Below, piece after piece: positions 8,084-36,540 of a stretch of 64,000 bases of DNA; the stretch's first letter is position 1; every line of letters starts with the position of its first letter. A model generated the notes under the pieces. It ran no database searches and was not told where the DNA came from. It saw only the letters and a program-made list of their open reading frames with translations. The stretch is taken from assembly GCA_963971425.1 (NCBI GenBank), contig OZ020526.1, forward strand, positions 18,939,173 to 19,003,172. Reading direction: 5' to 3'. The position numbers and the translations under genes are program-made. This DNA is from Bryoerythrophyllum caledonicum (lineage: Eukaryota > Streptophyta > Bryopsida > Pottiales > Pottiaceae).

Positions 8084-8087
8084 TTAG

Positions 8088-9010
8088 TCCCTAAAGGACC
8101 AGAGTCTCCTTCGGGGGATTTCTGATTTTGGCCAGGTTCCAAAAATTCGAAAAAAAATCTTTTTTCTTTGAAATTTTTATTCTAGATTGCCTCTGATAAG
8201 AGCTTCGTGGACATATTTTTATTTTATTTTTCGGATTTGTGGTTTGAAAGTTAGTACCACTTAAAGCCAAAAGTGGGGACACCGGGCACCTCCAAAAATT
8301 TTGACAAAAGTTTCTTTTGACATTGAGATTTTTCACACATAAAGAATATCTCCTTTACTGGAAATTTTCACAAGAAAATCTTGTCTTTAGTGTAAAAAGG
8401 CATTTTATTCCAAGTCAAACATTTTCACACATTGTCGGGCAACGGGGGAAAAGAACTTCATATTTTCTACATAAAACCTAGAGATCTTTATATTTTTTCA
8501 CTTTTTATTTCTTCAACAACAATATGTGGTGAAAACCTTCTTATTGACCGTTTGGATGATCATTTGAATACATACGTAGTTCACAAAAAAATAAAACGTA
8601 AAATGGCAATTTTTGAACCTCCACTCCTTGCACACTTGTTTTGAATATGCTACCCCCTTTTTTACCTCTAAAAATTGGTGTGTTGGGTAAAAACATCATG
8701 CTTAAGACAATGGTAAAAGATTTAGACCTTGTACAATGCAAAAATTTGATAGAGAGTGAAGTCAAAGTCTGCTGATCTACTCAAAGCAGGGAAGAAAATG
8801 AACCATTGTTTTGACTTTAAACACTAAAATCTATCAATATGTGTGGTGGATTGCAACCAAAATTCTATGGCATGTTTATATAGAAGTCTGTTTTAAGATC
8901 TTACGGTTGAAAATCTGAAATTCACTTTAAAATGTGATTTTCATGTCTCTTTTTGGCAGTGGCAGTTTTGGATTGGTTTTAGAGCGAAAGTGGTCATGGT
9001 CGTTTAGGGG
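8088..9010. mobile_element. TTAA-type MITE (923 bp), complete copy
   Basis: The element starts TCCCTAAAGGACCAGAG at 8,088 and ends GGTCGTTTAGGGG at 9,010. It is flanked on both sides by TTAG (8,084-8,087 and 9,011-9,014), a variant of the TTAA target duplication. The termini are inverted (CCCTAAA(G/C)GACCA). No transposase is encoded. Internal segments (for example CCAATTTTTAGAGGTAAA, and GGCACCTCCAAAAATTTTGA) recur at 30.7-31.5 kb in reverse orientation and, more diverged, at 23.7, 24.5, 47.4 and 53.1 kb. TTAA targets with CCC/GGG ends are the hallmark of piggyBac-like transposons, so this is probably a non-autonomous piggyBac-like family. Confidence 0.7.
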
Positions 9011-9014
9011 TTAG

Positions 9015-10580
9015 TGGGCTACTCGTTGTGAAGATGGAGACGGTGTTCCCACCCGTGTTCCATCAAAACATTGCTGAAAGCAATGTTGTCCCGCCTAATT
9101 TTTTTTCTAAGGCGAAATAGCCCTCAAACGTTATTTCGGACGGAGGGGTTGCTAAATATCGTTGCTTGACCACCCCTTTTCTACTAGTGGTAATTCAAAC
9201 CAAATCAGGCATGTTAGAAAGATGTATGTAAAGTCCCATGGTAACCACAACTATTTATTGTGTTGAACGAAGGGCTTGAAAAGGAGACTTGAAAGTGATT
9301 TGTACTTTTCCTTATTTAAAATTTTTATCCAAAAGGTGTTTCAAATATTGAAACAAATTTCTGACTGATTTCTTATCATTCATCATTGTATGACAACTTT
9401 TTTAATAATCAGTTTTAGACAATCTTAAAAATTGTATCTCATGAAGTTGTAAGGAACAATTATTTTGTTCCACTGCATATGATGTACCAAAAAGGAACAA
9501 TTATTTTGTTCCACTGCATACGGTGTACCAAAAAGGCCATGCCTCGACGGTTTAGGGTATTCTCCTAAAATACGTAGGCCACCCACGGTTTAGCGTAGGC
9601 GACCATCGCGCATGCCCAGGCTCCCCGCGATGGAGCGCAGGCCACCTCCGATCTGCACTCCCCGTTTTTTCCATCATCCGCCCGTTCTTCTTTCATCATC
9701 TGTCCGATTTTTTTTTCATCCACTGCCACGGGGTTTACTCTGTCGCGGTAGTTTGCTCTGCCGCAGGGTTTGCTCTGTCTTTGCTCTGTCTTTGCTCAGT
9801 GCCCTCGCTCCCTGACCTCCCGGCATTTTCCCTTTCATTCGAAACCAAACCGAGTTGTATCCGGTTCTCTAGGGTTTTTGCGCAACTCGGCGAACTAAAC
9901 TGATATTTGGATTCAACTTCTTGTTCTCTTGGATTCAACTTCTTGTTCTTTTTACTACTCATGAGGTTTGTGCAAATACAGATCTTAGGGTTTTGCGCAA
10001 CCGGTTCCTCTTTGGCAGGCTAGACCGATATTTTAATTCAACTTGTTATATTATTAGCCGTGAGGTTTTGCGCAATTGAGCTGAGCTGAGGGATTCTGGT
10101 CGTGCACAAACACATCGTGCCAACAGGTGAGAGCCCACACTTAGAGGCAAACTCGGAGCAATGGTGACTATACTATCACCGTTGCCTCCGTAAACAACGA
10201 AAACAATAGTTCACAAAAGAAACTAACAACCTCCAACAACCTAGGCTAGGGAAAAATAAATAAATACCGAGACCATAACATTTAGTAATTGGTCTACAAG
10301 GACCCCTTTACTCGCCCCCTTCGCCCGTGCTGAAGCCCCTTTCACACCGGTGAACCACACAATTAACGTAAAGTGTATGAACAACCGAGCATGAAAACCT
10401 CTCAAGTCCAGAAAAATCAAGGTGACCTATAGAAAAGACACTAGTAGACCGTTGTCCTGATGAAAATTCTTCCATCATGTACATACAAGTATTAGTCTTT
10501 ATATGTGTCGATTTTAATAAGTAAGGAGTTGGGGTAAAAGGGGTTGGTCGTGGTAAGAACCACGGTTTGAGGATTTGGGC
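9015..10580. other. intergenic region with short repeats
   Basis: No gene. A 41-bp unit containing the hairpin GGAACAA-TTATT-TTGTTCC is tandemly duplicated at 9,451-9,532. Between 9,600 and 9,830 the DNA is C/T-rich (TTTGCTCTG(T/C)C repeats); 9,840-10,080 holds three copies of AGGTTTTGCGCAA or close variants and a doubled TTGGATTCAACTTCTTGTTCT. Confidence 0.5.
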
Positions 10581-10585
10581 AGGTG

Positions 10586-10830
10586 TTAGCATTTAGGTGC
10601 TGCACCGTTCTTGTCACTGCTCAGGGGGGTAGGTAGCGGGTTGACTGGTATTTTTCCTGCCTCACTAGCGAGCCAAGCCGTGGGACGCCGAACCACTCGA
10701 CGGGCTCGATTGGGTTCGAACCCGGACCGGCGGCAGCCACTGACCACGACATTTCCAGCCAACCAAGTCCACGACTTGGCGATCAGGTTGTGCGAATCAA
10801 CACCTTTATACGTCCGTACCATCAGCTATC
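10586..10830 (-). mobile_element. tRNA-derived SINE-like sequence (candidate)
   Basis: On the minus strand a perfect RNA polymerase III B-box core (GGGTTCGAACCC) lies near 10,715-10,726, preceded about 20 bp upstream by TGGTCAGTGG, which resembles an A box. Spacing is shorter than in a normal tRNA. No acceptor-stem pairing is evident, so it is not a functional tRNA gene. No target duplication was found. It differs from the SINE at 52.7 kb. Confidence 0.35.
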
Positions 10831-12301
10831 TTACGATAAGTTTTATTTTTATTTTTATTTAGTTATTTTTTTTTATTTTACTTATCTTGTTGGTTGGAAG
10901 GTCTAAGTTTTTAGTCTTCCAATAAATAAAAGACTAGGGGATTTTATGTGGTTGAAAGTGGAAAGGATAAGAAAGTAATGAAGTACCTTGTGGGGAACTT
11001 TGGGTAGGGTGACATGGGCTGAAGTGCCCACGTCCACTAGAGGTGAAAAAGTTGGAAAGGAGATTCCTTAGTGAGTGGGTGTGTGTGTGTGTGTGCGGGT
11101 GAGAGAGCAAGGGTTTGGAGCAGAACTTTGACTGTGTGTAACTCGTTGAGCTTGAATGATATGGAATTGAAAATTTGTGATCTTGTTCCTTGTTTCGAGA
11201 GCTTTCCATACTCGTTTTAAATTTTGAATTTGGAGTTGTAGAAAAAAAGTTATTGAGGTTTTAATTCTGTGAAAACCCGAGGTCATCCATTGAGAGGCAG
11301 AGGTTTCGAGGAGCCATAACTTTTTCTGTAGTTCTCAATTTGATTTGAGATTTGGAGGGACTGTGCGTCTCTATCCTAGCTTTCTAGAAAGATATCACAA
11401 TTGAAATTCGGAGTTGTGAGCAAGAAGTTATAGAGATCTGAATGAATAGGGGTAGGCAGAACTTTGATTGTCCATAACTTTCGGACAGTAGTTTAGATTG
11501 ACTTGAAATTTGGAGGAGTGTTAGTTGTCTAAATTAGCTTTCCAGAGAGCTATTATACTTAGTATTTGAAGTTTTGAGTCATCGGTGTCACTTGTTTGAA
11601 GGTTACAACCTTGGTGAAACTTTTCCATTGTGTTTTTGAACACTTCTTTTGAGTTTCTTAGTGTTTTTGAACACTTGAAGACTTTGGAGTTGAAGGATGG
11701 AGGAATTGAAGACTTGAGGCTTGACTTGAAGAGAAGAGAAGATGGAGACAAGTGTGTTGTGGCTTGTGGTCCGATTTCTTTTTTTGTGATTCCAAGCCAG
11801 CTTTGGAGGCTAGTTGTATTTCAATTCTGTTCTTGTAAACTCTGTTGCGGCGAAGTGGGGTTAATTGCCCACATGGTCGTGTTTATGCCGTTCCCACCGG
11901 TGAGGCACGTTTGCTGGTCACCGTGGGTTTGAATTTTAGGAGCCAATCTTTCGGACGGTTTCAGCTTGTGGTCTGGCCGTCCCGTTTTACCCGTCCGAGG
12001 CCGTGGTTTCTTATCACCCACCTTTACCCTTAACCTTTTTGAGCCACCACAGGATAGGCCAACGGGGAGGAGTTTGAAGACTGAAGACTGAAGACTAGAG
12101 ACCGAAGACCTGAAGATTTGAAGATACGATTGGATTCCCGAGCAAACAATCTCCAGTCGCAGCCAGATTCCCTGCGAATTCTCAAGGCGCTCCCCTCTCT
12201 ACACGACACCGTGTAGACAAAAGATAGGCCGGGTGCAATGAGAGCCCCATCGTTAATCGCCTCTAACACTTTTAATGGCTAGACCTTGTCTACGTAGAAT
12301 C
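10831..12301. other. non-coding region, possible LTR remnant
   Basis: No gene. A (GT)n microsatellite lies at 11,075-11,094. From 11,100 to 11,620 sequences such as CATAACTTT(C/T)…CGGACAG, GAAATTTGGAGG and AGCTTTC(C/T)AGA recur two or three times, a texture typical of plant LTR sequence. A short GAAGACTGAAGACT repeat lies at 12,072-12,112. This lies just beyond the 3' end of the minus-strand retroelement and could be its 3' LTR, but I found no matching sequence beyond its 5' end. Confidence 0.35.
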
Positions 12302-15300
12302 TTAATGTGCTAAACAATTTGGACACGATCATTGACCCACTGGTACCTCTAGAAGAGGTGGGGTTAGACATTCTAGATGCCACCCCGTAGAACACAAGTC
12401 ACAAATGACCATTGTGGCTGCCCGTTTGGCACTACCAGACAATTGACATCGCAATCCAGAAGAGATGTGAGAAATACCAGGGTTTACCGTTCCATCAATG
12501 TGTGGTAAATGGCAAGGAGCGCAATTGCGCGTATGATTCTTCCATATTTTACCATCACGACCCTCCAACAGTAACACTCCTGAGTTCTTCACCTCACATA
12601 CTCGCAAGATCAGTCGTCCCACTATCACATCCAAAGTGGTGGGCGCTGCTTGCTGCAGATATACATAGTCTCTAGGAGTAAACCGTCGCACTTGCGGTCG
12701 GTAGCCTCCTCCCCATATTGTAGCATAACGCAACGTATCCCGATGTTGAGCAATGGAAAGATTCTCCAATGCCATAGGCATCACCCGTTTGAACAAATCC
12801 GCACGTTGCTCACATACTTGAGTCCACGTGTCTGGATTGTCCATGTTAGCCAACACGGTGTCAGCATCTGCTTGAATGGCCTTCGGTAACACCGGTTGCT
12901 TTCCAAACAACAAGAAGTAAGGAGAAAAAGACGCCAAAGATGCTTGCTTGCTAAACCGGTAGCCCATGGCTATCCACGGTAATTGCAAGTCCCAATCTTG
13001 ATGATGTCCCTTCTTCAAACTATACTTCCGAAGCCCCCTCTTGACGGTTTGCACCATGCGCTCCGCCAAGCCATCCGCTTCGGGATGATCCCTCGAAGTA
13101 GTGCGGTGATCTATCATTGCTTGCTCACACAACGTTTGAAACTCACCCAAGAATTTCCTTCCTTGGTCTGTGAGAACTTCCGCTGGAGCTCCAAAGCGGC
13201 TCAATACACGATCGAGAAAAGAATAAGCGGCCCCCTCACTAAACTTGTCAGGCAACGCCACCAATTCTATCCATTTTGAGAAGTGCTCGATCATCACCAA
13301 CACATACTTATTGTGTCGAGGTGTCATTGGCAATGGACCAGCAAAATCTAAGCTCCACCTATATCCCAAGCCCATAATTGGCAATGGTTGCAATTGTGGC
13401 ATCGGAGCGTTAAAAGACGCTCGTACTCGATCACAAACCATACACCGGGCTACTAAGGCTTGAACTTGAGTTTGCATTCTTCGCCACCAATAGTGAAGCT
13501 GGAGCAAGCTATAAGTCCTCCGCACTCCAAAGTGCCTAAGGTCTTCATGCGTGTCCTTGATGAGCTTCACTCTCTCCAATGGAGTTGGGACAACCTTCCG
13601 CGTGCCATCTGGCCACACCCTCAAAAGATGAGTCCTCTCCCATACGAACCGTTTGGCTCATTGTGAGACCCGATCTCTCTCCTTAGTGGACCACGTAGGC
13701 ACCATTTTTCCATTCTTCAGAAAATGCATCACGTTCGTGTCTTCAAAGATGTCTTTGGCGCCCCCAGATTCTTCACCGCCATCCTCATCTACCGTGGCCA
13801 CAGTAGAAGCTCCGGTGTCATCTCCACGCATCGCCAATACACTTAAAAAGGCCGAACAATGCCAACCTGGCAACAGATCAGCTTCATCCTCCCCGTGCCA
13901 CCTAGCGCCCGTAGCATCCGCTTGGTTTGGAATTGGATTGCGGCTAAGGCCGTCGGCATCCATATTCACCAATCCCGCTCTGTGCACCACCTTGAAGTCG
14001 TATTCCATCAACATCAAGGCCCACCGCGCTAGCTTGCCTGTTAGTTTGTCAGATTCCATCAACCACTTTAAAGGTTGATGATCCGTGACTAACAAGAACT
14101 CATTACCATAAAGGTAACATCGAAAATGAGCAATTGCCCATATGGCAGCCAAACACTCCCCTTCATACGAGCTATACTGGGCCTCCGCATTATTGTTGGA
14201 CCGGCTGGCGTACGCAATGACAAACTCCTTCCCATCGTCATCCATTTGCGACAACACCGCACCAATTCCCAATGCGCTCCAATCTGTGTGTAGCTGGTAT
14301 GTCCTTCCGAATATTGTCCTTCGAAGTATAGGTGCCGATGCCAAGCGGTCCTTCAACTCTTGAAAGGCCACATCTTGCTCATCTCCCCATATCCAAGGTT
14401 GATCATTCCTTGTCAACATGGTTAATGGCTTGGCAATAGCACTGAAAGTCTTCACAAACTTTCTATAGTAATTACACGATCCCAAGAATGCACGTAGCCT
14501 ACTTATATCCCTTGGTCTAAGAATAGACATCACTTCTTCAATTTTACTAGCTACCACACCCAATCCACTTGGATATATCATGTGGCCTAAGTACTCGATG
14601 CGGTCAAAGTAGAATTTGCACTTACCAGGGTGCAACTTCAAACCGTGGAGCCTCAATCTAGCAAACACTTCCATCAAGTGTAGCCTATGTTGCCTTCGAT
14701 TCGTGCTAAAGTCAACGATGTCGTCAATGTAGCATCTCACGAAATCCAAGCCCGAGAATACTCGGTCCATAACCCTCTGGAATTCGGCAGGAGCATTCTT
14801 CCATCCAAATGGTAAGAATTTCCATTGGAACAACCGGTCCTTCCCATCTTTGTCAATGCCCCAGAACGCAGTCTTCTCCTTGTCTTCCTCTCTCAGTCCA
14901 ATCTGGTGGTATCTAGAGCGCAAGTCCAACGTACTAAATACCTTGGCGTGACCAATAGCCTCAAAGTTCTCCTTCGGCGTTGGCATCGCATATCGATCCG
15001 ACTTGGTGAATTTGTTAATCCTCCTATAGTCCCCGTACATCCTCTTCTCGGTCCAATTACCGTAGATATCTTTCTTGGATGGCATAACCGTCGCCGATGC
15101 ATACTCGCAATCCGGTGGAGCCAACTCCAGTAGCCCCGCAGCCACCAACTCCTCCGTACGAGCACGTATCATCCTCCGTTCAACGTCGCTATACTTATAC
15201 GGCTTCCGGTATATTGGTGCTTTGTCCGTAAAATTGATATGTACTTATTGCCCCTTCAATACTCCAAGATCTTCAAGACTAAAGGCAAAACAATCTAAGT

Positions 15301-15841
15301 ACTACCTGAGGAACTCATGTTCCTCTCTCTCAACTGCTCCATCCGCCAGGCCTACCATCGGTTTCCAAGTATCCTTGGTCACCGCCTCCTTCGGTTCCTT
15401 TGGAGCAGGATTCTCCTTCCTTGGTTGCTATTGGATGCCATGCGAAGGAGATTCTTCTCCTTCCACCTCCACCAAGCTTCCAAGTCCTTCCAATTGGCAT
15501 AGTTTGCCAATTGTCTCCCTTTGGTGAGCTGTGTGTTCTCCCACGAACATATTCTCCACAGCTTCCTCCAAATCCTTCGTTTGGTGGGCCAATTCCCTAC
15601 TTCGGTTCCAATCCTTCACTCCATGAAGAGGATCCTCAATCCTGGGTGTCGCGAAAAGGTTCGCGGAGCTCCACATATTCCATGGGTGAGGTGCCAAGGC
15701 CTTCTCGCCCCCAACCACTTTGCCTGTCACCTTGACAGAGACAAATGGTTCTCCGGCCGCCCGCAACTCATAAGACCCCATGGAACCGGTAAAACTAGAA
15801 GCCAACCGCTTATGTTCTGCCACTAGCAACGAACGATCCAC
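12302..15841 (-). pseudogene. reverse transcriptase, RNase H, integrase and C-terminal PHD finger (broken pol)
   Basis: One frame from 15,841 to TAA 12,302 with in-frame stops at 15,428 (TAG), 15,302 (TAG), 15,245 (TAA), 13,658 (TGA) and 12,329 (TGA). Visible parts: RT with CYIDDIVDF and FLPFGWKNAPAEFQ; RNase H with LHTDWSALGIGAVLSQ and TDHQPLKWL; integrase with an HHCC zinc site (H…H…CMVC), then catalytic D (SLDFAGP), D (LTDQGRKF) and E (PEADGLAER). After the integrase C-terminal domain comes a C4HC3 PHD-like motif: RCQLSGS, CDLC, WHLEC, LTPPLLEVPVGQ, stop, SCPNC. The second cysteine of the first pair is Ser. PHD fingers read histone H3 tails, so this probably acted as an integration-targeting module, analogous to the chromodomain of chromoviruses (inference). 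Confidence 0.85.
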
Positions 15842-18717
15842 GTCAAGCAGTTTAAGTCCATCGCTTGTCCAATTAAAAATCGCCGTTGTTGCTCTGAGAT
15901 CCCGGGCGCATCGGTAGTGCCCGTGGAAAATCCCATGGCTCTCTCTCGTTCATCCGCATTAGGCTCCACCATCTCTTGAGACAAGGAATCCCACACAAGA
16001 CCCGGGCCGTTATCCTTAAAGGCATACGATCGAGCAAAACTAACCAACGTGGGTAGTGCCCTACGTGGTTCTCCTTTGCGGTTGACTACCGCCAAAGGTG
16101 CTTGGTCGTCATGATAAACGCGTCGCGTTGCCCTATGAGGATCCAAAATATCACTCACATAGACATCTGGCCGTTTAATTCGACCCACAGCGGACTGTAA
16201 CAACTCTTGAGGTGCTAAATTCGTCCACCACAACCGCGGGCGATGTGCTCGCGATCCCACCGCAGCTGCATCCAACAACACGGGCATACCCAGATTCTGG
16301 TGTATGCGGTGCATGCCCTCCAATGTCCTCGACCTCGAGCTACTCATCACTGGTACATTTTCCACAATGTAACCTGGTGGTCGCTTCTGAGAGGTTTGAA
16401 GCAAAGACAATACGCGAATCATATCATGAAACCACGAAGAACGAGTGTCTTTCAACCCGTTTTGATGTCCAGCCATTGACAATCCTTGATATGGCCATCC
16501 CGCGATGACAAGGTCCACATGGCCAGCACGGTGAATATCCTCTGCTGAAAGCAAAGCAATATCACCAACAAGGGTAGGAAATGAAGTCTTGATGGCACTG
16601 GTGGCCAACAAGTCTGGGAATTGAGTCCTCAATCGCCGTGAATGCCACTTAGCCACGTGCCTTGCTGCCTCATCAACATCTACGTAGATGTAGCGTTTAA
16701 CCTTCATCCCTTCTTCCAACACTGACGCCAAGCCACTTCCAATCCCTCCAAACAACTCCAACAACACAATACCATCCTCTGGTACCTTCCAGTGAATGGT
16801 GGAAGTGTCTAGACGTAAGCCTAAGTCTTGGTCCACTCGAGAATCATCTTCTAGTTGTGGTAGTATCGAATGCTGCCAAGCATCTTCAATGACATGTGCC
16901 GCATCCTTCTGAAGTTGAGTCGTGGTCCTCCACGCTACTTTTATGCCAGGTTGATACGTCTCTGTATCTCCACCACTTGTGTCACCCATTTGGGCATCCA
17001 TCTCGTGAAGTGTAGGAGTATCCATCGAGAAAGTATCACAACCCTTGTGAAACCATGATGGTCTCACATCCATACCTCCTGAGAAGGCAAACACGTCTGC
17101 AAGATTGCCAGTCAGAACTCGAATAAAACGAGCTGGCAGCTGAGCCTTCCGCCCATCTCCTACTTGCCATCCTGGTCTATAACTTGCGGTTTCTTCCCAG
17201 AAATCCAAGATGAATCTCATGGGGTATAGCACCGCCGAGCCCACCAAGACATCGTATGACTTGGCCTCCGTTACTATAGCTTTCACCTTCATAAAGCTTG
17301 CATCCTCGACATCATCTTCGTTGAGTCGTAAAATCAACTCCTCCTTTGTGATGCCCGTAGCATGCTCCGTACCCCCCATGGAAGTGCTAATTGCCCATGG
17401 ACACTTCTCCAAAGTGTCCCCGGTCAAACCCAACCCCTCACGGGCAGATGCACCCAACATCAATGGTTGGGCTCCTGAATCCAAAAGCACTCGTCGAGGC
17501 ACAAATACCCTCCCCTTGGGCCCAACAAGTTGGAAAATCCCCTGGGAGTTGTCAACCACCACCACACCAGGTGTAATGGATGACCTCTCGATTGCAGGTC
17601 TGGCGGCCATGGTCTTGACACGCATGGCTGCTGAAAGCAGCCCCTCCACGTTGTCCTCTTGACTCTTATCTACCTCTCCTTCAATCACTTCCGTCTTCAA
17701 CGCATTGACGCCCGTGGAGTCACCCGACTCACACATTTGAGCCGCCATCTTGAATACTGCCGCTGCATTGAAGCCCTCTTGTGACATCAATTTAGCTGAA
17801 AATAGTGAAGCCTCACAAACCACGTTTGCTGCTTCTCTCACCACAGTAGTTGGTGGCTCTACAAATCCAACGGTAGGACGAGTTGTTGACACCCCCCGAC
17901 GCCTCGGAGGCACCATGGAAGATGTTGGCACCATCTCCTCCAATGTGAAAGACTCTGGCAATCGAGCTTGCCGGTTGTCCTTACCATGTTGAGGATCCAA
18001 GGTTGGACTTGCTCCACGTGGAACCTCCTTGGTCACCGGTGTTTGACTCCGCGTAAGGGCATAAGCCTCCCGTGAGCCCTCCGTAATAGCAAGTGCCATG
18101 CCACTTAGCATATAGTCCCCGAATTCGTCATCATCGGGCCTAAACCCGCCCTCAGCATGAAAATTAGGAGTGACTTGGGGCTTCTCACTCACTGAAGCAG
18201 CATTCGCGCTCATGGCCGCCATCTTGGCCTCCAACTCCGCGAATTTGGCCTTCCAACCTTTCTTGTCTCCTCTCGAAGACTTGGACTCTTTCTCCTTGTT
18301 GCTTGCCTTGGTTCCCTTGCCTCCAGAAGGCTTCAACTCCGGGTGAAGCTTCCAACACTTAGCCTCGGAATGCCCCTTGGCACCACAACTTGAGCAATAG
18401 CCATCGGTTTGAGGGGTAGATGACTTGCTTTCCTTGCAATCCTTCCTCAAATGCCCCGGTTTGCCACAACTAAAGCATAATGCTTCAGTGTCGCTGGCAT
18501 AGGAGGGAACCGAAGCCTTGGCCACCTTGACCTTTTCAGGAATCTTCTCTTCACGTTTGAGAAATCCCATGGCCGCTTTCTCCTCCAATAAATTGATCTC
18601 AATTCTCTCGGACGTCTCGAACACAAACCTCAAAGTCGGTGGCTCATCCAATCGCAATGCCTCATTGCAAACTAATGTCTTCAGCTCCTTCTCTAAGATG
18701 TTGTACCAGTGCTGCAC
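15823..18717 (-). CDS. zinc knuckles, retropepsin and C5-cytosine DNA methyltransferase (964-codon open frame)
   Basis: This frame has no internal stop. It begins in the C-terminal part of gag: two knuckles, CFSCGKPGHLRKDC and CSSCGAKGHSEAKC (codons ~81-121). The retropepsin motif LLDSGAQ is near 17,475. From about codon 647 it is a C5-cytosine methyltransferase in canonical motif order: motif I LLELFGGIGSGLASV (S-adenosylmethionine site), a VDVDEAAR acidic segment, motif IV GWP-Y-QGLSMAG, motif VI ENVPVM (~codon 782), motif VIII RAHRPRLWWTN (~codon 821), and a motif X-like IGQAMDLNCLTWIV at the end. The spacing and RAHRxRxxW resemble DNMT3-type enzymes. The motif IV cysteine that attacks cytosine is Tyr743 (TAT at 16,491-16,489), so this copy is predicted to be catalytically dead. 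A frameshift near 15,830 separates it from reverse transcriptase. Confidence 0.85.
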   Translation of the reverse strand: MQHWYNILEKELKTLVCNEALRLDEPPTLRFVFETSERIEINLLEEKAAMGFLKREEKIPEKVKVAKASVPSYASDTEALCFSCGKPGHLRKDCKESKSSTPQTDGYCSSCGAKGHSEAKCWKLHPELKPSGGKGTKASNKEKESKSSRGDKKGWKAKFAELEAKMAAMSANAASVSEKPQVTPNFHAEGGFRPDDDEFGDYMLSGMALAITEGSREAYALTRSQTPVTKEVPRGASPTLDPQHGKDNRQARLPESFTLEEMVPTSSMVPPRRRGVSTTRPTVGFVEPPTTVVREAANVVCEASLFSAKLMSQEGFNAAAVFKMAAQMCESGDSTGVNALKTEVIEGEVDKSQEDNVEGLLSAAMRVKTMAARPAIERSSITPGVVVVDNSQGIFQLVGPKGRVFVPRRVLLDSGAQPLMLGASAREGLGLTGDTLEKCPWAISTSMGGTEHATGITKEELILRLNEDDVEDASFMKVKAIVTEAKSYDVLVGSAVLYPMRFILDFWEETASYRPGWQVGDGRKAQLPARFIRVLTGNLADVFAFSGGMDVRPSWFHKGCDTFSMDTPTLHEMDAQMGDTSGGDTETYQPGIKVAWRTTTQLQKDAAHVIEDAWQHSILPQLEDDSRVDQDLGLRLDTSTIHWKVPEDGIVLLELFGGIGSGLASVLEEGMKVKRYIYVDVDEAARHVAKWHSRRLRTQFPDLLATSAIKTSFPTLVGDIALLSAEDIHRAGHVDLVIAGWPYQGLSMAGHQNGLKDTRSSWFHDMIRVLSLLQTSQKRPPGYIVENVPVMSSSRSRTLEGMHRIHQNLGMPVLLDAAAVGSRAHRPRLWWTNLAPQELLQSAVGRIKRPDVYVSDILDPHRATRRVYHDDQAPLAVVNRKGEPRRALPTLVSFARSYAFKDNGPGLVWDSLSQEMVEPNADERERAMGFSTGTTDAPGISEQQRRFLIGQAMDLNCLTWIVRC

Positions 18718-19513
18718 CGCTTGCTACTCCGTGAGTAGCAGAAATCAGTCTCCGCAATCTCGCACGAGCTTCTTGCAAGGACTCATCTCCTCCTCGCGCA
18801 AAAGACCTCAATGCCTTCATCTTATCCGCGCGTTGACCTTGATAGTCTTGACGAATCTGTGTGAAGAACATGGCCGTAGGGTTAAACGGAGGTGGAATAG
18901 CCACCGTTTCCATCGGTTGGCTCAAGTCCTCGGCACTACTCGTGCCCTCCTCCTGCTTCCCCTTTCCCACACGTGATGGCACACCCGGCGCCCCGCCGAA
19001 TACGTCTGCGTAATTCGGTGCATAGAAATCTCTCCATGCCAATATCTCTGTGAGATAAGCCTCGAATTCTCCATAATCCGCTAACGGGGCTCCCTCTAGA
19101 CATCCAAATAACGCCCTCCACACCATGTAAGGGTTGAAGTTGGGGTTGCGAGACTTCTGGAGTTCACACCACATGGTGAACTCCCTCTTGAAGTCATCCG
19201 CTTCGATAGTGCCCGTGGCACCCGAAAACCGTCGCAACTCCCGTTCTCCTCCTCCTCCATATGGTGAAGCCATCTCCTCCCAATCAAAAATTGATTGCAA
19301 AGGCTTTCTTGGTGGGGAACTTACACTACGTGCCAAAGATTCTACTTCAAACTCACGTTCTTCTACTATCGCTTGCACCATATCCTCCTCTTCCTTCGAT
19401 TGAGTGGTAACCTCCTCCACCACTCGTTCACGAACGCCTACCGCAAATGGGGTGTTTCTCCGAGTGAAATTGGGCCCCTTCCACGTCTCCAGATTGAGAA
19501 CTGGTTGGCTCAA
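18662..19513 (-). pseudogene. gag capsid-like region of the retroelement
   Basis: An open frame of 283 codons. The stretch ADDFKREFTMWCELQKS…FNPYMVWRALFGCLEG and the later TQIRQDYQGQRADKMKALRSFARGGDES…LRRL have the tryptophan/leucine spacing of Ty3/gypsy capsid proteins (retrotrans_gag). The frame closes at 18,662, but the expected continuation (QHWYNILEKEL, then the zinc knuckles) lies in another register from 18,717, so an indel near 18,700-18,720 has broken gag. Capsid proteins package the element RNA in cytoplasmic particles. Confidence 0.7.
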
Positions 19514-20166
19514 TCACAGAAGCGCCATGCTGCATGAGTGCCCTTCTTCTCCGGAGCGTAGATAGTGGGTGGTACTTCCCAATCGAGTAGCTCCAAGGTG
19601 AGTGTGTCCCACACACTGCTGGCCCGCTCTCGCCACGTACCCACCTCCCACTGCCACGTAGTATGAAACACGAAGCCTTCACTCTCAAACTCGGTGAAGA
19701 TGAGGGAGAACGTGGGCAATTGGTTCCCTCGGCGGAAATCCACCACCTCCACGGTGTACCTTGACCCAACGTTCTTTAGGACAACGGCCTTCTCTCCAAC
19801 CACAAGATCCACGGCTTCAACTTGGCCTCGTGCACGACAAAGAGGAGCTCGAACACCCTCCTTGGCCCGAAGTGCTCGAACTTTGCGCACCCCACCAAGT
19901 GAAGTCCAATACTTCACGGACTCTACGCTTAGCACCTTCGTGCCTGGCTTTTGCAAGTCTTGAGTCCCGGTTCGAGACTTGGCTATGGGAGATAACTCAA
20001 AATCCCTACCACTAGAGCTTGCCTGGGAAGATGAAGATTTAACTTGCAAATCTTGGAGGCAAGTAATCAATTGACTAAGGGTCTCGGTGCTAATCTCTAC
20101 CGTGGATGCACTAGACTCTTTTGATTCCTTCTTCTTTCCTCCACTATCCATGTCCCATATGCTCAA
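19510..20166 (-). CDS. gag N-terminal open frame of the retroelement
   Basis: A 218-codon frame starting ATG 20,166 with a Ser/Lys-rich start, followed by a region rich in beta strands (VGEKAVVLKNVGSRYTVEVV). It ends in TGA at 19,510, where the downstream gag frame (19,513-18,662) takes over in a different register with only a 4-nt overlap. It is either an extra leader ORF upstream of gag or the N-terminal part of one gag cut by an indel. No known domain was recognised. A 70-bp minisatellite lies upstream at 20,399-20,660. Confidence 0.5.
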   Translation of the reverse strand: MSIWDMDSGGKKKESKESSASTVEISTETLSQLITCLQDLQVKSSSSQASSSGRDFELSPIAKSRTGTQDLQKPGTKVLSVESVKYWTSLGGVRKVRALRAKEGVRAPLCRARGQVEAVDLVVGEKAVVLKNVGSRYTVEVVDFRRGNQLPTFSLIFTEFESEGFVFHTTWQWEVGTWRERASSVWDTLTLELLDWEVPPTIYAPEKKGTHAAWRFCD

Positions 20167-20398
20167 TGCAACCCACTCTTTTTACGTGGTTGTATTAAGC
20201 GGGCTTACAATGGATCTTAGGGGAATGCTAGATTAGGGAAATGCTAGAATTTCACTTCTTGTTCACTATCATATGCCACACTTAGCTCACGTGATGCAAC
20301 ACATCAACGGTGTGCACAACAATTTGATGAGAACAACCCAAAGTCTAGCCATACATGATCCCCATAATCCAAATTCCTAGCCGAAGTACAAGAGGAAA

Positions 20399-20660
20399 GC
20401 GACAATGTCACTCACCATCCCATACCTCTACTAGTCACTCCCCAAAGGTGGCAAAGCGCAAGAAAAAGGTGACTATGGCACCCAATATCCCACAACTCTT
20501 CCAATCACTCTAACAAGCAAATTGGCAAGGGTAAGAACTGGGCAACAATGGTACCCACTATCCCACACCTTCACCTCTTACAAGAATGACGAAGAGCAAG
20601 AAGAAGGTGACTATGGCACCCGCTCTCCCGCACTTTCACCACTTACTAACAAGATATAAC
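20399..20660. repeat. about 70-bp minisatellite upstream of gag, four copies
   Basis: Four imperfect units start near 20,399, 20,467, 20,541 and 20,605. Each contains (G)GTGACTATGGCACCC-like sequence, then TATCCCACA and an AAG(A/G)GCAAGAA end. It lies in what should be the 5' leader or LTR of the minus-strand retroelement. Confidence 0.65.
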
Positions 20661-20989
20661 ATACAAACTTGTCACTCCCCCAAGCAACCGACTATCCCCT
20701 CCCAACGCAGGTCCGGATACGTTACCTTGTTGAAGTTGTCTTGGGCCTCCAAATAGCTACCACTAGCTACTCCTAGAGAAACCCTAAATGTAATTTATGC
20801 CTTATAATGCCTCGTGCAAGAGGCTAGCCCTTCTCTAAAACTACATAAATTCTAGGATAACACCTTAAAATTCTAAATGATCAAAATCACTAGAAACGAG
20901 CAGCTCTTGCACTAACATGTGCACAAAGCTAACATGTGCTCAAGCATGTATCATTCCAGGGTTACCAATCCGACGTCCTTGGGGGTCTG

Positions 20990-21414
20990 AGAGCGTCCTA
21001 GGGCGTCCTAGGACGTCCTAGGACGAGGACGTCCTGACGTCACGTCGGACGCAGCGTCCAGGGGGGGTAAAATGCATTTACCGAAGGCCGTAGTAAGTTT
21101 TCTGGACCGTCAGATTCGACGAAGTGCGACGCGGCGAGATCTCAGCCGTCGAAATGCGTCGAGTCGTCCGACCGGACCCCGCCGTCGGAGAGATCGGACG
21201 GCACCTCGGCCGTCCGCGTGATCGGACGGCCGATGGACAGATCGTACGGCCCCGATTTGATCGCGGGGGTGCACGACGGCCGTCCGATTAGGCCGACGGC
21301 TTTAGGGCCGTCCGATCCGCGGACGGCCGTGCGACCGGTCCATCGGCCGTCCGATTGGAGGACGGACGGCCGCGGTGGCGGTCGGCCTCATGGCTGTCCG
21401 CCACCCTATAAAAG
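20990..21414 (+). promoter_or_regulatory. GC-rich TATA promoter island of the kinase-like gene
   Basis: A strikingly GC-rich island in AT-rich surroundings. It opens with overlapping palindromes of CGTCCTAGGACG (20,996-21,030), then a perfect bZIP/CRE-type palindrome TGACGTCA at 21,035-21,042. From 21,110 on, CCGTCC/GGACGG, often within (A)TCGGACGGCCG, occurs about ten times in 330 bp in both orientations. It ends in a TATA box (TATAAAAG, 21,407-21,414) followed by GCCGTCCGCC and a CT-rich initiator. The downstream ATG is at 21,922. A related island serves the minus-strand gene at 28.6-29.8 kb. Confidence 0.65.
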
Positions 21415-21584
21415 GCCGTCCGCCAACCTCTCTCTCTCACTTTTTCCTTCCCCTCTCAAAAATTGAAATATATTTTTGAGTGGATGCGGAGTGGCTTTGG
21501 CTGGCATTTTTCCATCCATTGGCTCCTCATCTTTGGGAGGGAGAAAGTGATTCACATTTGGGGGGGAGTTTTTGCGGTTTTTTT

Positions 21585-21895
21585 AAAGTTTTTTTAAAAA
21601 CTTGTTCGAAAAATGCTTTTTTCATAGTTTTTTTATAGAACTTGTTCCAAACTAGTTTTTCTCTTCAAGTTTTTTTTAAAACTTGCTCTTAGAAGTTTTT
21701 TTTAAAACTTGTTCTTAGAAGTTTTTTCTCATAGGTTTTTTTTTTAATTTGTTCCAAACTAGTTTTTTTCTTGAACTTTTTTTTAAAACTTGTTGTAAGA
21801 AGTTTTTTCTCTTAGTTTTTTTTAGAACTTGTTCCCATCTAGTTTTTTTCTTGAAGTTTTTTTAAAAACTTCTTCTAAAAAGTTTTTTATTGAAA
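21585..21895. repeat. T-rich tandem repeat in the kinase gene leader
   Basis: Degenerate units of AGTTTTTTTTAAAACTTGTTC, alternating with CTAGTTTTT(T)CTTGAA, repeat from about 21,585 to 21,895 between the TATA box and ATG 21,922. It would be transcribed as a U-rich 5' leader or lie in a leader intron. The in-frame codons upstream of 21,922 (Phe/Leu/Ser-rich) are part of this repeat and are not taken as protein. Confidence 0.7.
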
Positions 21896-21921
21896 CTTCA
21901 AACGGCGGCGGGGTCAAGAAG

Positions 21922-23406
21922 ATGCCGAAGGACAAGAAGAAGCAGAAGGTTGCGGACTTCGGAGTGAAGCTTCATCCAATCCACGACGTTCCATCTGAGG
22001 CTTGCAAGAATTTCCTCATAGAATTGACCGTCAGATTCTATGAGAAAAATTCTATTCGATCATTGGAGAGCAAGTACGTCAGATATAGAAATGAAGGCCC
22101 CGAGAAGTTCCGGACGGACATGCGGCAGCACATGATGAACGCGCTTCAAGCCCCGATGTGGAATACGGAGACCCAGAAGCGCGGGTTTTTGAAGTTCTTG
22201 GATGCCAGAGTGCACGATTCACTTTGGAATGCCAAGAACTTGTTGACCAAGTTTGGGAGGTTCAATCGCGCGGCGGATGAAGTTTTCAACGACGTGCTGT
22301 TGAAGGCGGATTTGTTCGTGGCCCAGATGAAGCCATTCGCCAAGAATCGAAACCGGCGTGGCTCCGTGGGATGGTCGAATTCGATAGAGGGGCACCAAGA
22401 AGACCTGTTGCGTAAAGCTCATCTCATTGTCATTCCGCCAGCAGCCGCGGTTATACGAATGGACAATGCGAACAGGAGAGGTGGATACGCCACCATTCGC
22501 AAAGTCCGCATTGAGGGTGCTTCGGGCATTGAACCATTCTGGGAATTTGCCGCCAAGTTGTCCAACCAATCGGAGACACGGCCGGATTTGGCAAAAGTTG
22601 AGCATCAGAATGAGTCGATGGCGGTGAGGATTCCACATCCGGGTGTCATCCGTTTCGTGGCCATTCATCCGGACAAGTACGAAGGCTATGCGTATTGGTG
22701 GAATGGCGGGACAGTTCGAGAGATGTTGAACCGGGATATCGAGTTTGGTGACGATGTCATCACACATTTGAACTATGGGAGATTCCCCGATGATGAGATT
22801 ATTCGAGTTCAACAGTTGGTTCGTTTTCGCAAAAAACAGATCGAGCTTGCGTGGGAGTTGTTGCGCATCATGAACGAGGTCCACAAGAGCAACAATCTCC
22901 ACAATGAGTTGTCTCCGGACAATATCCTCCTCCACTTCCCTCCAGATGAATCGCGAGTGTATATTTGAGTATGCGATTGGGGGATGACCACGAAGGTTAA
23001 CGAACCAATGCAGTTTCTTTATACGTTCACAAAGCGTGAAGACATGGCCGAGACTCTGCAAAGGCGATGGTGGGTCGATCCGCGGGTTGCGTACTTGCAC
23101 AAACCAGATGCGGATGTGCAAATGATTCCGAAGTTATCAATGGCTTCGGAGGAGTTCGCTACGGCCCGAATAGCGCAACGAATCAACGGGCGGACAATGT
23201 CCATAGACTACGAGAATCTGCAACGGGAATCTCGGAGTTCCGTAGTATTCTCAAATCAAGAATTTGCGGATACATTTCATATGTACATGGAGAGAGTCTG
23301 CAACGAAAACCGAAAAAGCGCTGGAGGATTGTTTCATATCATTACATGCTTCGGCGACACATACAACTGGCCCACGCCTCATGAGCATTATCGGTCAACG
23401 TATTAG
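21922..23406 (+). pseudogene. divergent protein-kinase-like gene with in-frame TGA
   Basis: The frame runs from ATG 21,922 (MPKDKKKQKVADFG) to TAG 23,404-23,406 with one TGA at 22,966-22,968 (codon 349). Kinase landmarks in order: glycine-loop-like GGYATIRKVRI (codons 186-196); AAK lysine at 212; PHPGVIRF; hinge YAYWWNGGTVREML; catalytic loop HNELSPDN (codons 327-334); then, directly after the stop, CDWGMTTK in place of DFG. The HRD aspartate is Glu and the loop lysine is Ser, so even the intact protein may have been a pseudokinase. The first ~180 residues are helical and unrecognised; there is no signal peptide or membrane segment. It has its own TATA promoter island and no visible introns. 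TGA could be a nonsense mutation or an annotation-dependent splice problem, but no GT-AG pair removes it cleanly. Confidence 0.65.
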
Positions 23407-25348
23407 TAATACATAGGTTTTACTTTATTCCTTTCGGCATTATTAGACTATACTAGATAGCATGCACATTTTGAAGTGACTATAGCAATAGTCTTAGATT
23501 AATATGTATTACATGCCTTTATAATTTGGGCACAAGAAGTAAAAAAACCTTATTTCATATAGCCGTGCAAAGAGCGACATTTTTTGAATTTTATATGGTT
23601 TAGGTTGTGGCATAGTTCCGATTTTTTAACTTATCAATGTGTTCTATTTCAAAATTCTTGTATTTTAGAGTTTTTGTTAAAATTACCTCAAAATATCCTA
23701 ATCCAACCTTATGATGAGATTTCCCTACACACCAATTTTTAGAGGTAGAAAAGAACTGTAGCATATTCAAATCAAGTGCGCAAATACTGGAGTTTAAAAA
23801 TTGTCATTCCATGTTTTATTTTTTAGTAAAGTGAATAAGATTTCAAATGATAATCCAAACCCAGGTTTAGGAAGGTTTTCATGTGTTCAGTACATGTTGT
23901 TGAAAAAGCAAAATGTGTAAAATATGATGATCTCTAGGTTTTATGTAGAGAAGACGTATATCAAATTTTACGAGTTTGGGTTCGAACTTTTCGGATAGAT
24001 CATAGTGCCCATGGCACAAAATCATACATAACCTCAACCATTTTATGTTTCTTGAATACAATTTAGCATTTATAGGAATTTACCCCATTTGAAATGCCTC
24101 CTCATGCCCGACTCCCTACTCATACAACATGTCTCCTATATCCCCAAAAATATCGTGGCAGTTTTGATCCGGAAACATTTCAAAGTTGTTGGATTCTAGT
24201 GCAATGACCATAGAAGGAAACCAAAAGTTTGATTTCTAGTTGTGACCGTTGGAACTCAATTAAGACTTATTAAAAAATATGTTTACAAAATTTCAGAAAC
24301 TTTGACTGCACATATTGAAAGATTATAGTGTGTGAAGTGAAGCAAATGGTTTAGGGTCTTCACTGCGTTTAGTGGATCCGCAGACTTTGACTTTACCTGG
24401 CGTCAAAATTTTGAACTAGGCAAGGTCTAAATCCACTACCTTAAACATGATGGTAGTTCCTTAGACAACAATTTCTTGAGGTAGAGGACAGGTATAGCAT
24501 ATTCAAAACAACTATGGAAGTAGTGGAGGTTTAGGCTTTGCCAATCCAAACTTCTTTTTCTTGTGAACTTCATGTGTTTTGAATTACTAATCCGAATGGT
24601 CAATAAGAAGGTTTACACCACATATTAATGTAGAGAAAATAAAATGTAAGAAATACAAAGATATGTAGGTTTTATGTGAAAATTCAAAAGATCTTTTGGT
24701 ACCTCGCCCGACAATGAGTGACAATGTGTGAAAATGTTTGACTTGGGTTGGTATGCTATTTAAAAAAATTTCAATAAAGAGAAGACTTGTTTTTTCAAGG
24801 GAACGGTGAAATACATCGTTTCTCATAAGGTTTTCCATGACATTATCATGTACATTCTTCTAAATATTTACACTTGAATTAGATGCATAGAAAAGTTAAA
24901 AGTTTGATTCAAACTTTGCATGTTTAGGGTTCATGCACGCTTTGACGACGTCCCCTTCCATCCAATTGTATTCTTTCCGTGTCCGTCATCATATTATTGT
25001 TTCAAATGAGATTTCAAACGAGACACCTTACATGTCTTGTAAATGAATATCGCCATATATAACAAATTTGAAAACACAACCATCACTAACACACAAAAAA
25101 CATGCATGAGATCGAATGTGATGAACATATTCTCTAGCCATAATCTACATCCAAAGTTTAGTCCCTAAAATGTTATTTTTAAGTACACTCCAAAATGTCA
25201 AATTTTCAAAACTTTTGTAACAATTTTTTTGCTTACATACCAGATGAAAACGCACCTAAAAAGCCCAAATCCGAAGTCGGAATTGAAAAAAAAAAAAAAA
25301 ATTGGAAGTTATTAAGTCGCTGTTATGTTAATTCTGCCAAAAAAACAG
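23407..25348. other. AT-rich region with degenerate MITE fragments
   Basis: No gene. Two stretches (about 23,720-23,960 and 24,450-24,800) match the interior of the 8.1-kb MITE (ACACCAATTTTTAGAGGTAGA, TAGCATATTCAAA, GATCTCTAGGTTTTATGTAGA), implying decayed copies. The rest is AT-rich with no recognisable feature. Confidence 0.5.
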
Positions 25349-25615
25349 TTTCATCCACTGTGGATGAAATTCTATGCGGCGGAAGAAAAATCCCGCAGCG
25401 GATGGAAATTTCCGCAACGGATGAAAATTTCCGCAGCGGATGAATATTTCCGCAGCGGATGAAAAACAGCGCAACGAATTAAAAACAAGCAGCGGATGGA
25501 AAAAAAACTGCGGATGAAAAATCACCATGCGGAGGAAAATCAGAGTCTGGTTTAAATGTTTGCAGCGGATGAAAACATTCGCAGCGGATGAAAAGTAGAC
25601 TGCAGATGAAATTTT
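25349..25615. repeat. degenerate GCAGCGGATGAAA tandem repeat
   Basis: About ten copies of (CC)GCAGCGGATGAAAA(TTT), with irregular period near 19-25 bp, between 25,375 and 25,615, introduced by a near-perfect palindrome TTTCATCCAC(T)GTGGATGAAA at 25,349-25,369. An isolated inverted copy (CATCCGCAGCGGCGG) lies at 26,398-26,413, on the far side of the MITE at 25,856-26,208. Confidence 0.7.
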
Positions 25616-33855: not shown

Positions 33856-36540
33856 CGCGTCACCAAGAGCACCACAAAAATCCACACCCCTACAAGTGAA
33901 TTCAATAAAGATTTAAGAAACCCACAAGTGTCAACCACTCACCCGGTTGCTGTGTGGATGTTTCAAAGCCAAATGAGCACTTCCGCGCTTCACTCTACAA
34001 TCACCTTCTCCTGGACGTCGCTGCTCACAGAGATGAAACCAGAATCCTAAGTTCGAGGTCCTCACCCTGATGTGAACGGTAATTGGCAAGAGTTCATTCC
34101 GGTAGAAATGCTCCTCTTCCTGCCGGCACTGTTGTCATGTTTAGAGCACTCGACCCGGTTTTCTTCAGCGAGGTGTCTATTCAACCACTTGGAGCCCGAT
34201 TTTGCATCCCTTCTCTCCAAGGAATTCTCCTTCACATGACTCAAGGAAGCCGCGACAGCTTCTAGCTCGTCCAGATGCCGAGCACTTCCTTGGTTGCAAT
34301 GCCACCAGATCTCGTGAGTTTCAAACCCTGAATCCGGAGAAGATCGCCACGAGAAAAGCTAGCGCAAGCTCAGGTAACAACTATTGTCATAGTGCGGCCA
34401 CTGATCCTCCGCTCACAAGCTCCACTGACCTCACCGAGAATTGATTCCAGTAGCCGTAAATCCAGCTGGTACTTCCAAAAGCTCCGCAAGCACTAATGCG
34501 CTTTACCTTGGTCCGCAGGCACTTTGGTGCTTCACCTTGAAATCCCAAGGAAACTGAAGAGAGGATGAACACTCGAGCGGCGTCCCTCACGCCGACGTCT
34601 CTCCACACCGACCTCGCCTGGCTCTGCACATTCCTTACTGGTTGGTGAACAATCCCCCACTTGGGAAATTTTGCTTCACAATGATAGGAACAGCCGATAT
34701 CGAAGGATCAAAAAGTAGCGTCGCTATGAACGCTTGGCTGCCACGAGCCAGTTATCCTAGTGATAACTCTTCCGCCACCTCCACACAGCGCCTTCTATGG
34801 CATCTCCGGCAGCCTTCGTCTTCTTCAAAATGGGACTCCCACCCGGCACTCAGGCCACAAGCAGGTCCTGGTCACTCTCCTATGAAACCCTAGCCTGTCT
34901 GGTATGTGAAACCATCCTCAGGCTTCACACCTGCCGCGACATCTGCATCTCCTCCTGAATCCAACCTCAAGGAAACTCCGATTCCACTGTTGGTGCCTGA
35001 GCCGAGATGCTCTCCACGTCCACTTCCGGCTACCAGCACTTGCCACCGCTCCTCCACCGGAACTTCCGCAGCAGCCACCGACTAAGTACACGGGTCCTCC
35101 TGGGCGCAGTCCAAAAGGTGTTGGATGAAGACAGGTGGTTTCGGCAAGCAATTAGTAGGTCTTGCGCTGTCAGCTGCGCCCTCGGGAGGGGCGATTATCG
35201 ATCACGCCCGGCGGTATGCACAACCGCTTTATCTCCCTCCGACGTGCACATCAAGTCAACCACTACCAATCATCACGGAATCGGGTTCTACCTCGATCAC
35301 CTCTGCTCTTGCAGGCTGGATCCCACCTAGTTCTGAGCTACACCCTCGTCTCTTTCTTTTTGATTGTAGCGCAGATCCCAAATCCAGACAGCCTAGACAT
35401 GAAGCAACCCAAGTCGTGCACGAAACAGAGCCCGCCGCAGCAGTGTTGTCTCCGCCTCAATATCCCCGATGAGAAGCTGTCAATCACCGCGTGCACGAGC
35501 AGCTCATGTTCCGCCTCGCTCTCTAGCTTCTTGATCACCAAGCCGCAGCCAGCTCCTCTCGGCCTCCCGGCGTCCGTCGGCACTCTTTGTGTCCGTCGGG
35601 CGCGGCTCCGTCTGCTTGTCCACCTAGCCGCCCTGCTAGTCGCCGTACATGTCGTCGAGGAGAGTTACCCAATCCATGACGTACCGTCGAGCACAAGCTC
35701 GTCCTCGCGCAGAAAGGCCAACACGGAGTCGCAATCAAAGTCGCCAACGGCGGGATAGAGCTCACAAAGTGAGTTGCTTGTTGGAGCTCAAGGATCGCCT
35801 CCTCGCGCAAACCCTCGTCGTCGCCAAAGACGTGCGCTCGAAACCCTCGCTCTTGCACGTCCTTGCGACTTCCCAGCCGCGCTTCTGGAGAGTGTTTGTC
35901 AGGGCTAGCATTCTGTATTTCAACCTAAAGATGAACACTTCGTTGTTAGGTTTCGGGCTCTATCTCTACTTCGCTCGAAGTTCAAGGAACACTCTAGTGC
36001 CGTAGTAGGAATTTTGAGCAACGCACACAAAACCCTAGTAGATGTATAATAATGTTGCGGTTACACCCATTTCCGCAACATGATCTTTCTCAAGTAACAA
36101 ATAAGTGATAAACACTCACAAATCACAATAAGTCAAGTCCATGCCACTCTTCAAGAGTGAAAACATGATATGGATGAGGCTAACGATGTGCAACACGCAC
36201 ACACCTTCACCTCATCACGTGGGAGACTCAACTTGAGAAAGATGAGTCTCCCTCAACCACACGTGGAGGTCACCCGGGTTCGAAGTCCCGAGATGAGGTG
36301 TCGAAAGACACCACCGTTGCCATAGCTGCCACGCGGCACTAAACCTAACACTAATCTCCCATTAGCGCTAAGTCTTGGGCTCTCCGGTAACTCCACAACT
36401 CTCTAGATGGTTTCTACCCGAATACCATCTATACAAACACCTCCATGCGCCGATCCTGACATTCTGTTAAGTTGTAGGGGAATGTTGCTTTTGATTCTCG
36501 GTGTGCGGTGGTTTTGACGAGGACTGAGATTTTTAGGTTT
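33856..36540. other. GC-richer region, possible LTR-retroelement remnant, no gene assigned
   Basis: On the minus strand AAGTGGGGGATTG ending at about 34,650 looks like the polypurine tract plus LTR start (TGTTCACC…) of a plant Copia-type element; the LTR would run left to the gap. No integrase or reverse transcriptase was seen to its right. Several open frames (34,100-36,000) are Ser/Pro/Arg-rich without recognisable domains. At 36,270 a GGGTTCGAAGTCCCG B-box-like sequence occurs. From 36,400 to 36,540 lies the leader of the eS28 gene, with a TTTTTAG that could be a leader-intron acceptor. Confidence 0.35.

Follow-up and report, generated by a model that had tools for sequence, protein, structure and literature searches.

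The locus and its methyltransferase

The DNA analysed here, hereafter the window, comprises 64,000 nucleotides of the 437 Mb genome of the moss Bryoerythrophyllum caledonicum (C15:18939173-19003172; contig OZ020526.1) and contains on its minus strand a copy of a Ty3/gypsy-type retroelement that carries a methyltransferase. A sequence-only reading had claimed an open frame of 964 codons, and the open reading frame list indeed contains it at 15823-18717(-). That this frame encodes a C5-cytosine methyltransferase agrees with a Pfam search, in which DNA_methylase (PF00145) matches residues 715-830 above the cut-off (E 5.8e-11, 42.8 bits, cut-off 22). The zf-CCHC match of the same frame also exceeds its Pfam cut-off; the gag and protease matches are both under theirs (Asp_protease_2, E 0.0059). 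The domain order gag, protease, reverse transcriptase (RT), RNase H and then DDE integrase is that of Ty3/gypsy elements, and the proposed placement of the methyltransferase between protease and RT is right. RT and integrase do follow downstream on the same strand, as had been read, but in the window copy they are in a different frame from the methyltransferase. The enzyme had been placed at 15823..16780, where it is found, but its domain starts at about 16800, and the retroelement seen around it is larger than thought, extending from 36461 to 10098 (minus strand) and being broken up by other DNA. The reading was thus correct in its core, and a leaky-type stop, a PHD finger and split direct repeats are features that go beyond it.

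Among solved enzymes, the domain is closest to DNMT3 in sequence and predicted fold alike, which bears out the earlier description as DNMT3-like. The top match among PDB sequences is DNMT3A (phmmer, E 3.7e-8), and DNMT3A/3B are nearest with 88 bits, whereas DNMT2-type enzymes reach only 32 bits. An assignment as a DNMT3-type C5-cytosine methyltransferase is supported by these comparisons. Motifs I, IV, VI, VIII and X align with those of the relatives in unrearranged order. NCBIfam returned the dcm superfamily alone, under cut-off, and PHROGs phrog_116 covers almost the whole domain. An enzyme of such an element would be packaged together with RNA, which might suggest that it methylates element RNA or tRNA in the manner of DNMT2, but the bit scores point away from DNMT2-type enzymes, and we consider RNA as the substrate very improbable.

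What had been called a IV-like motif is a real motif IV, yet its catalytic cysteine is replaced by tyrosine in the window copy (16489-16491). Tyrosine at this position occurs in two of 52 aligned proteins, the window and the relative P0039, and a further relative, P0176, lacks the PCQ motif, so that the domain could be imagined to be retained for a non-catalytic role, such as DNA or RNA binding or particle assembly, with its activity being dispensable. Against this stands the conservation of the cysteine in 50 of the 51 relatives with a letter at that column (P0039 being the exception) and in 19 of 20 copies fetched from the genome, and a purely non-catalytic role is therefore quite unlikely.

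Copies, relatives and selection

A genome search with the 964 residues gave 48 rows, which correspond to 47 places, as two rows are pieces of one place; with 47 of 3247 candidates scored, this number is a lower bound. Identity to the query is 89-100% at 41 places and 77-78% at six. The anatomy of the element was studied at 20 of the 47 places, namely the window, 13 copies of family 1 and all six of family 2. As judged from the sequences, the element family is multi-copy, abundant and partly young. A search of the genome with PF00145 gave at least 123 places, all above cut-off (123 scored of 1057 candidates). Four of these were examined: L055, L056 and L057 represent a second lineage of methyltransferase-bearing elements, 88-90% identical to the protein P0013, and L054 (C14:16016250-16017450) is a bacterial-type C5 methyltransferase (FPCQPFS), open over 370 codons and located on a long contig, which reflects either gene transfer or contamination.

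Related proteins number 57 at E <=1e-3, of which 50 also show gag/protease, RT or integrase (BLAST, 1e-4); named sources are Marchantia polymorpha, Calypogeia fissa, Sphagnum and Closterium. All six proteins that show gag/protease, methyltransferase and RT have them in that order (Marchantia, Sphagnum, Closterium). In P0046, P0144, P0147 (Volvox reticuliferus, partial domain) and P0176, RT and RNase H are ahead of the methyltransferase, and in P0048 the methyltransferase lies directly 5' of the integrase; these five sequences suggest a second placing of the enzyme. A search with P0176 for further RT-first methyltransferases found P0176 itself and P0134 only. The methyltransferase-like domain without PCQ in P0176 (residues 491-706) is a single sequence of an RT-first element and is possibly a dead enzyme that was retained there. 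Three Klebsormidium proteins (49, 45 and 41%) are among the best 120 of 1013 RT matches, and no methyltransferase was recognised in these three; the matches listed for the methyltransferase itself likewise include none from Klebsormidium.

The methyltransferase tree has 52 rows, after removal of 14 near-duplicate or partial relatives and of domains outside about 190-480 residues, and was midpoint-rooted for drawing only, with phage enzymes as sole outgroup. The window clusters with P0002 and the copies from both families, and this group, with P0003 and P0037, adjoins a liverwort-moss clade. P0046, P0176 and P0048 cluster on long branches. As regards a possible bacterial or phage origin of the domain, 11 loci in viral contigs match it at 27-33% identity; the six placed in the tree stand together on one side of a branch, where long branches meet in the midpoint-rooted drawing.

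In the comparison between the families (13 x 6 copies, window copy excluded), the methyltransferase has a ratio of nonsynonymous to synonymous divergence (dN/dS) of 0.042 and the protease one of 0.085, and the spacers stand at 0.153 and 0.263. The gag/zinc-knuckle part has 0.036, at a dS of 2.5, near saturation. In the second open reading frame (ORF2; 5 x 2 copies), RT has 0.045, RNase H 0.056, the integrase 0.044 and the PHD-bearing tail 0.082; these values come from the seven copies with full-length ORF2 and are thus biased low. With the other dS at 0.7-1.7, synonymous change between the families approaches saturation, which makes all of these ratios rough, and the comparisons cover enzyme-bearing elements. 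Inside family 1, the pN/pS of the methyltransferase is 0.134. On these rough ratios, purifying selection holds the enzyme about as firmly as RT and integrase, and the enzyme therefore probably matters for how the element spreads.

A chance one-off insertion of an unrelated host gene into the window copy, which the sequence-only reading had set against its own proposal, is ruled out by the at least 47 copies, the six relatives with the same order, and the selection between families. We found no support for it and give it practically no credence.

Coding arrangement

Where open, ORF1 has about 1360 codons and encodes gag, CCHC, protease and methyltransferase, the latter being the last recognised domain upstream of a conserved leaky-type stop. 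In 19 of 20 copies this stop is a UAG within CAA/CAG-UAG-CAA-CCA, and in L033 the frame continues. UAG-CARYYA is described as the type I readthrough context of tobamoviruses in the available text of PMC5382211. ORF2, in the same frame as ORF1, comprises 1041 codons where open and encodes RT, RNase H, DDE integrase and a PHD finger; both ORFs are open in six of 20 copies. As the enzyme lies upstream of the leaky-type UAG, it would belong to the Gag-level product, and readthrough of the UAG is predicted. Directly upstream of gag is ORF0 (about 220 codons, 19510-20181(-) in the window), which has no Pfam match and is conserved in both families (pN 0.19, pS 0.79 between families, with synonymous sites saturated).

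The PHD finger (PF00628) at the C-terminus of the integrase exceeds its cut-off in L021 (E 1.4e-9) and L034 (E 2.3e-9), and its best PDB match is PHD finger protein 12 (E 5.7e-15). It is also found in the relative P0048 and, under cut-off, in P0057. In P0048, an extra C-terminal part with a DPWAG motif follows the finger (about 1000-1224), which by eye is perhaps another methyltransferase-like fold. The integrase of ORF2 is of the rve type, and no match to a tyrosine recombinase (phage-integrase) was obtained up to E 0.1.

A DNMT3-type fold, at least 123 PF00145 places and a PHD reader would suit action on chromatin, and the enzyme could thus act mainly in trans on the host, spreading methylation or silencing rival elements, and not on the complementary DNA (cDNA) of its own element. 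However, the position of the enzyme inside the Gag-level frame favours the particle. The enzyme is also constrained about as tightly as RT and integrase, which speaks for a part in the replication cycle, because an effect on the host should exert little selection on any single copy. We therefore regard an action mainly in trans as unlikely.

Terminal repeats and ends

Across the copies, the repeat layout is A-coding-B-(A-B)n. Four copies have long 5' flanks; in these, the 5' end is A1 (about 367 bp) without B, and the 3' end is B1-A2-B2, with three A-B units in L025. A1 of the window also runs into the leader and not into B, which makes five of five copies, from both families, in which A stands alone at the 5' end where A1 could be read through. 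The coding region is thus not enclosed by the two identical long terminal repeats (LTRs) of Ty3/gypsy elements; the direct repeats are split in the order known from DIRS elements. A1 and A2 differ at 0-1 of 367 positions in the four long-flanked copies, and these four insertions are therefore young; where a copy has at least two B ends (11 copies), B1 and B2 differ at 0-3 of 231-233 positions. Seven copies have one exact B end, ten have two, L025 has four, and two copies have none, namely the window, where the final B base differs, and L031.

The insertions end in TGTC...GACA and thereby have the TG...CA ends of Ty3/gypsy elements. For 14 copies, the window among them, the 5' flank could be examined; the start was not located in L037 and L039. 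A perfect 4-bp target duplication is present in 11 of the 12 copies read at both ends (L032 has one mismatch), and such duplications occur alike with 0, 1 and 3 A-B units. In nine of ten two-B copies and in L025, the B1-A2 junction is the palindrome GACA-GC-TGTC, L032 being different. A polypurine-rich tract adjoins B1 on its 5' side, and the conserved stretch CTTGAGAAAGAT lies immediately 3' of A1. CTTGAGAAAGAT does not begin with TGG, and 12 nt of it are the complement of a hairpin loop within A; this hairpin is identical in both families, the rest of A having diverged. The hairpin stretches fold with z of -2.15 and -2.82 (7 and 2 of 200 shuffles fold equally well), and the 12-nt complement was reached by 0 and 2 of 5000 mononucleotide shuffles of A.

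As the A-B unit has TG...CA ends like a normal LTR, and as the number of units varies, as recombination would cause, the split repeats could be a recombination by-product in ordinary elements with an A-B LTR and conventional replication. This is rather improbable in view of the 5' ends with A but no B in both families, and of the polypurine-rich tract and primer-site-like stretch that flank B1 on the 5' side and A1 on the 3' side. Moreover, the main text on KnitGypsy-Dnmt3 of the alga Klebsormidium nitens reports the same arrangement (PMC5890265).

State of the window copy and its surroundings

The window copy is decayed and unable to be active. Compared with the relatives, its frame changes at about 18707-18735 (gag) and about 15832 (methyltransferase end), and its pol has in-frame stops. 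It has nevertheless retained 41 of the 42 alignment columns with a conservation of at least 93% in the relatives (counted where at least 40 letters are aligned), the sole loss being the catalytic cysteine of motif IV. The element lies in three blocks, A1 at 36461-36095, coding at 20956-12208 and B at 10311-10098. The gaps of about 15 kb and 1.76 kb between them contain DNA that the four comparison copies (L022, L024, L025, L035) do not share; these copies have a leader of about 1.9 kb where the window has about 15 kb; this stretch consists of nested insertions, possibly plus a diverged leader. As the outer ends of A1 and B share the 4-bp duplication AGAA, 36461 and 10098 are very probably the two ends of a single insertion. 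These ends were recognised only via the other copies, and a repeat search found no direct repeat pair around the frame within 8000-28000 of the window.

Private C-to-T changes of the window copy amount to 38 (CG), 43 (CHG) and 19 (CHH) per 1000 sites, compared with 6.6 per 1000 for private changes from A/T to G/C (13 rows; L031, whose match to the other copies ends inside the element, was omitted). Most other copies show the same bias with fewer changes. Decay of methylated cytosine would give such an excess, whichever agent had methylated it.

Inverted repeats around the frame (I1-I5) were set aside, as their repeat family recurs at 30.7-31.5, 47 and 54 kb. A dispersed family occurs in both orientations with about 68-90% identity (8151-9013, 30661-31524; also 24.3, 47.4 and 54 kb). 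Further long inverted repeats of 98.9% identity are found at 46665-47584 / 53879-54798 and 50776-51500 / 51785-52509, the latter pair bearing a Tc1/mariner-like transposase frame (family judged by eye). Long frames on the plus strand lie at 58836-61013 and 63384-64000, the second resembling an Ulp1-type protease by eye.

Table 1. Features of the element copy in the window, in element orientation
Feature	Position	Strand	Basis
Target-site duplication AGAA, 5' side	36462..36465	-	
5' terminal repeat A (A1), begins TGTCAGG	36095..36461	-	97.5% to A2 of L022
Conserved hairpin within A, loop complementary to primer-site-like stretch	36221..36252	-	
Primer-binding-site-like stretch, immediately 3' of A1	36079..36094	-	
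About 15 kb foreign to L022, L024, L025, L035	20957..36009	.	copy comparison
Assembly gap, 200 N, inside interrupting DNA	33656-33855		
ORF0, conserved leader ORF, no Pfam match	19510..20181	-	
gag N-terminal part; frame change into next ORF in window copy	18662..19513	-	
ORF with gag C-part, CCHC, protease-like region, methyltransferase (964 codons)	15823..18717	-	
CCHC zinc knuckle	18430..18477	-	Pfam
Aspartyl protease-like region with DSGA	17236..17499	-	under Pfam cut-off
DNMT3-type C5-cytosine methyltransferase domain	15826..16800	-	profile, sequence, predicted fold
Motif IV catalytic Cys codon, Tyr in window copy	16489..16491	-	
Frame with post-methyltransferase linker (from ~15840) up to leaky-type stop	15428..15949	-	
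UAG in CAA-UAG-CAA-CCA (type I readthrough motif)	15428..15430	-	
Reverse transcriptase and RNase H	13658..15244	-	Pfam
Integrase (H2C2, rve), C-terminal PHD-like finger, broken in window	12329..13657	-	
Second insertion of other DNA, 1.76 kb	10451..12207	.	
Polypurine-rich tract 5' of B	10312..10326	-	
3' terminal repeat B; A2-B2 absent in window copy	10098..10311	-	
Target-site duplication AGAA, 3' side	10094..10097	-	

Discussion

Several known systems share parts of this architecture. Chromoviruses are Ty3/gypsy elements with a chromodomain on the integrase, and the element described here likewise has a chromatin-reading type of domain at the integrase C-terminus; however, a PHD finger replaces the chromodomain, and the methyltransferase and the split repeats are additional. 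The self-primed Ty3/gypsy elements Tf1/Tf2 of fission yeast have a primer site that pairs with RNA of the element itself, as also appears from the sequence here, but in our case the pairing partner is a hairpin loop within A. For methyltransferase-bearing retroelements, our literature searches listed PMC5890265, on Klebsormidium and dinoflagellates. Judged by titles and abstract openings, they yielded no report of such elements in bryophytes, of a Gag-level enzyme before a leaky-type UAG, of PHD fingers on LTR integrases, or of 4-bp duplications around split repeats.

The window family is of the same kind as KnitGypsy-Dnmt3, a gypsy element with a Dnmt3 in its Pol ORF (de Mendoza et al. 2018, PMC5890265). 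By the features described in the main text of that work, both have gypsy domains, repeats arranged in the DIRS manner and, within the coding region, an unrearranged Dnmt3-type enzyme that has conserved catalytic residues and evolves under purifying selection (Ka/Ks <0.2 in KnitGypsy-Dnmt3). In contrast to the Pol polyprotein location in KnitGypsy-Dnmt3, the enzyme described here ends ORF1 before a conserved UAG. That main text does not mention a PHD finger, and its sole mention of target duplications concerns LINE elements. SymbioDIRS-Dnmt3 of Symbiodinium, whose enzymes methylate CG as shown in yeast (PMC5890265, main text), likewise combines a Dnmt3-type enzyme with A-coding-B-A-B repeats, but it has a tyrosine recombinase where our element has a DDE integrase. 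Methylation of cDNA has been proposed for DIRS elements by the same authors. The available text of PMC12344493 restates the 2018 finding, and that of PMC6453930 does not mention methyltransferase-bearing retroelements.

Taking all of this together, we lean, if only by a modest degree, towards the reading that the window holds a decayed copy of a Ty3/gypsy-type family with a captured DNMT3 that works in the Gag-level particle on the element's own cDNA. UAG readthrough would make RT and integrase a minor product, so that the methyltransferase would be made in Gag amounts and packed into the particle at Gag level. There it would methylate the double-stranded cDNA ahead of integration, and the new copy would arrive already methylated, which could serve as protection or let it pass as host heterochromatin. 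The PHD finger would tether the integrase to marked nucleosomes. The cDNA would further take a joined or circular form on its way, because the ends seen after integration match the B-A junction and not the ends expected from the polypurine tract and primer site. Standard reverse transcription from that tract and primer site would yield an LTR of the B-A type and ends of B...A, and if the molecule were joined, as a circle bearing one, two or more LTRs, opening it at B-A would give exactly A-coding-B, A-coding-B-A-B and longer forms.

Several points weigh against this particle-based mechanism. The selection ratios are rough for the reasons given above, and the joined intermediate is deduced from the anatomy of the ends; recombination between B copies could also yield shorter and longer forms. 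Among 19 relatives with known last residues, one ends in Gln, so that, if these ends are true stops, a CAA before the stop is not common to the relatives. P0176, in which no catalytic motif is recognisable, would permit a non-catalytic role in the wider group, and the Klebsormidium domain gave no methylation in yeast, a result that its authors deem inconclusive (PMC5890265, main text).

A more far-reaching and decidedly tentative reading is that methyltransferases are tied to retroelements with joined or circular DNA, and that the element represents a second, convergent origin of the DIRS life style, with a DDE enzyme. In this case, the integrase would cut the palindromic B-A junction (GACA-GC-TGTC) and insert A-coding-B-(A-B)n with 4-bp duplications, and the Gag-level DNMT3 would mark the joined intermediate.

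Hosts classically use DNA methylation as their weapon against transposons. Here, a transposon carries a methylation writer itself, kept about as strictly as its polymerase, and has a finger of the histone-reader type added to its integrase. The combination of a DDE integrase, target duplications and split direct repeats raises the question of which route reverse transcription and integration take. Relatives occur in both liverworts and mosses, and in one of these hosts, the model Marchantia polymorpha, the benefit that a retroelement draws from DNA methylation can be put to a direct test.

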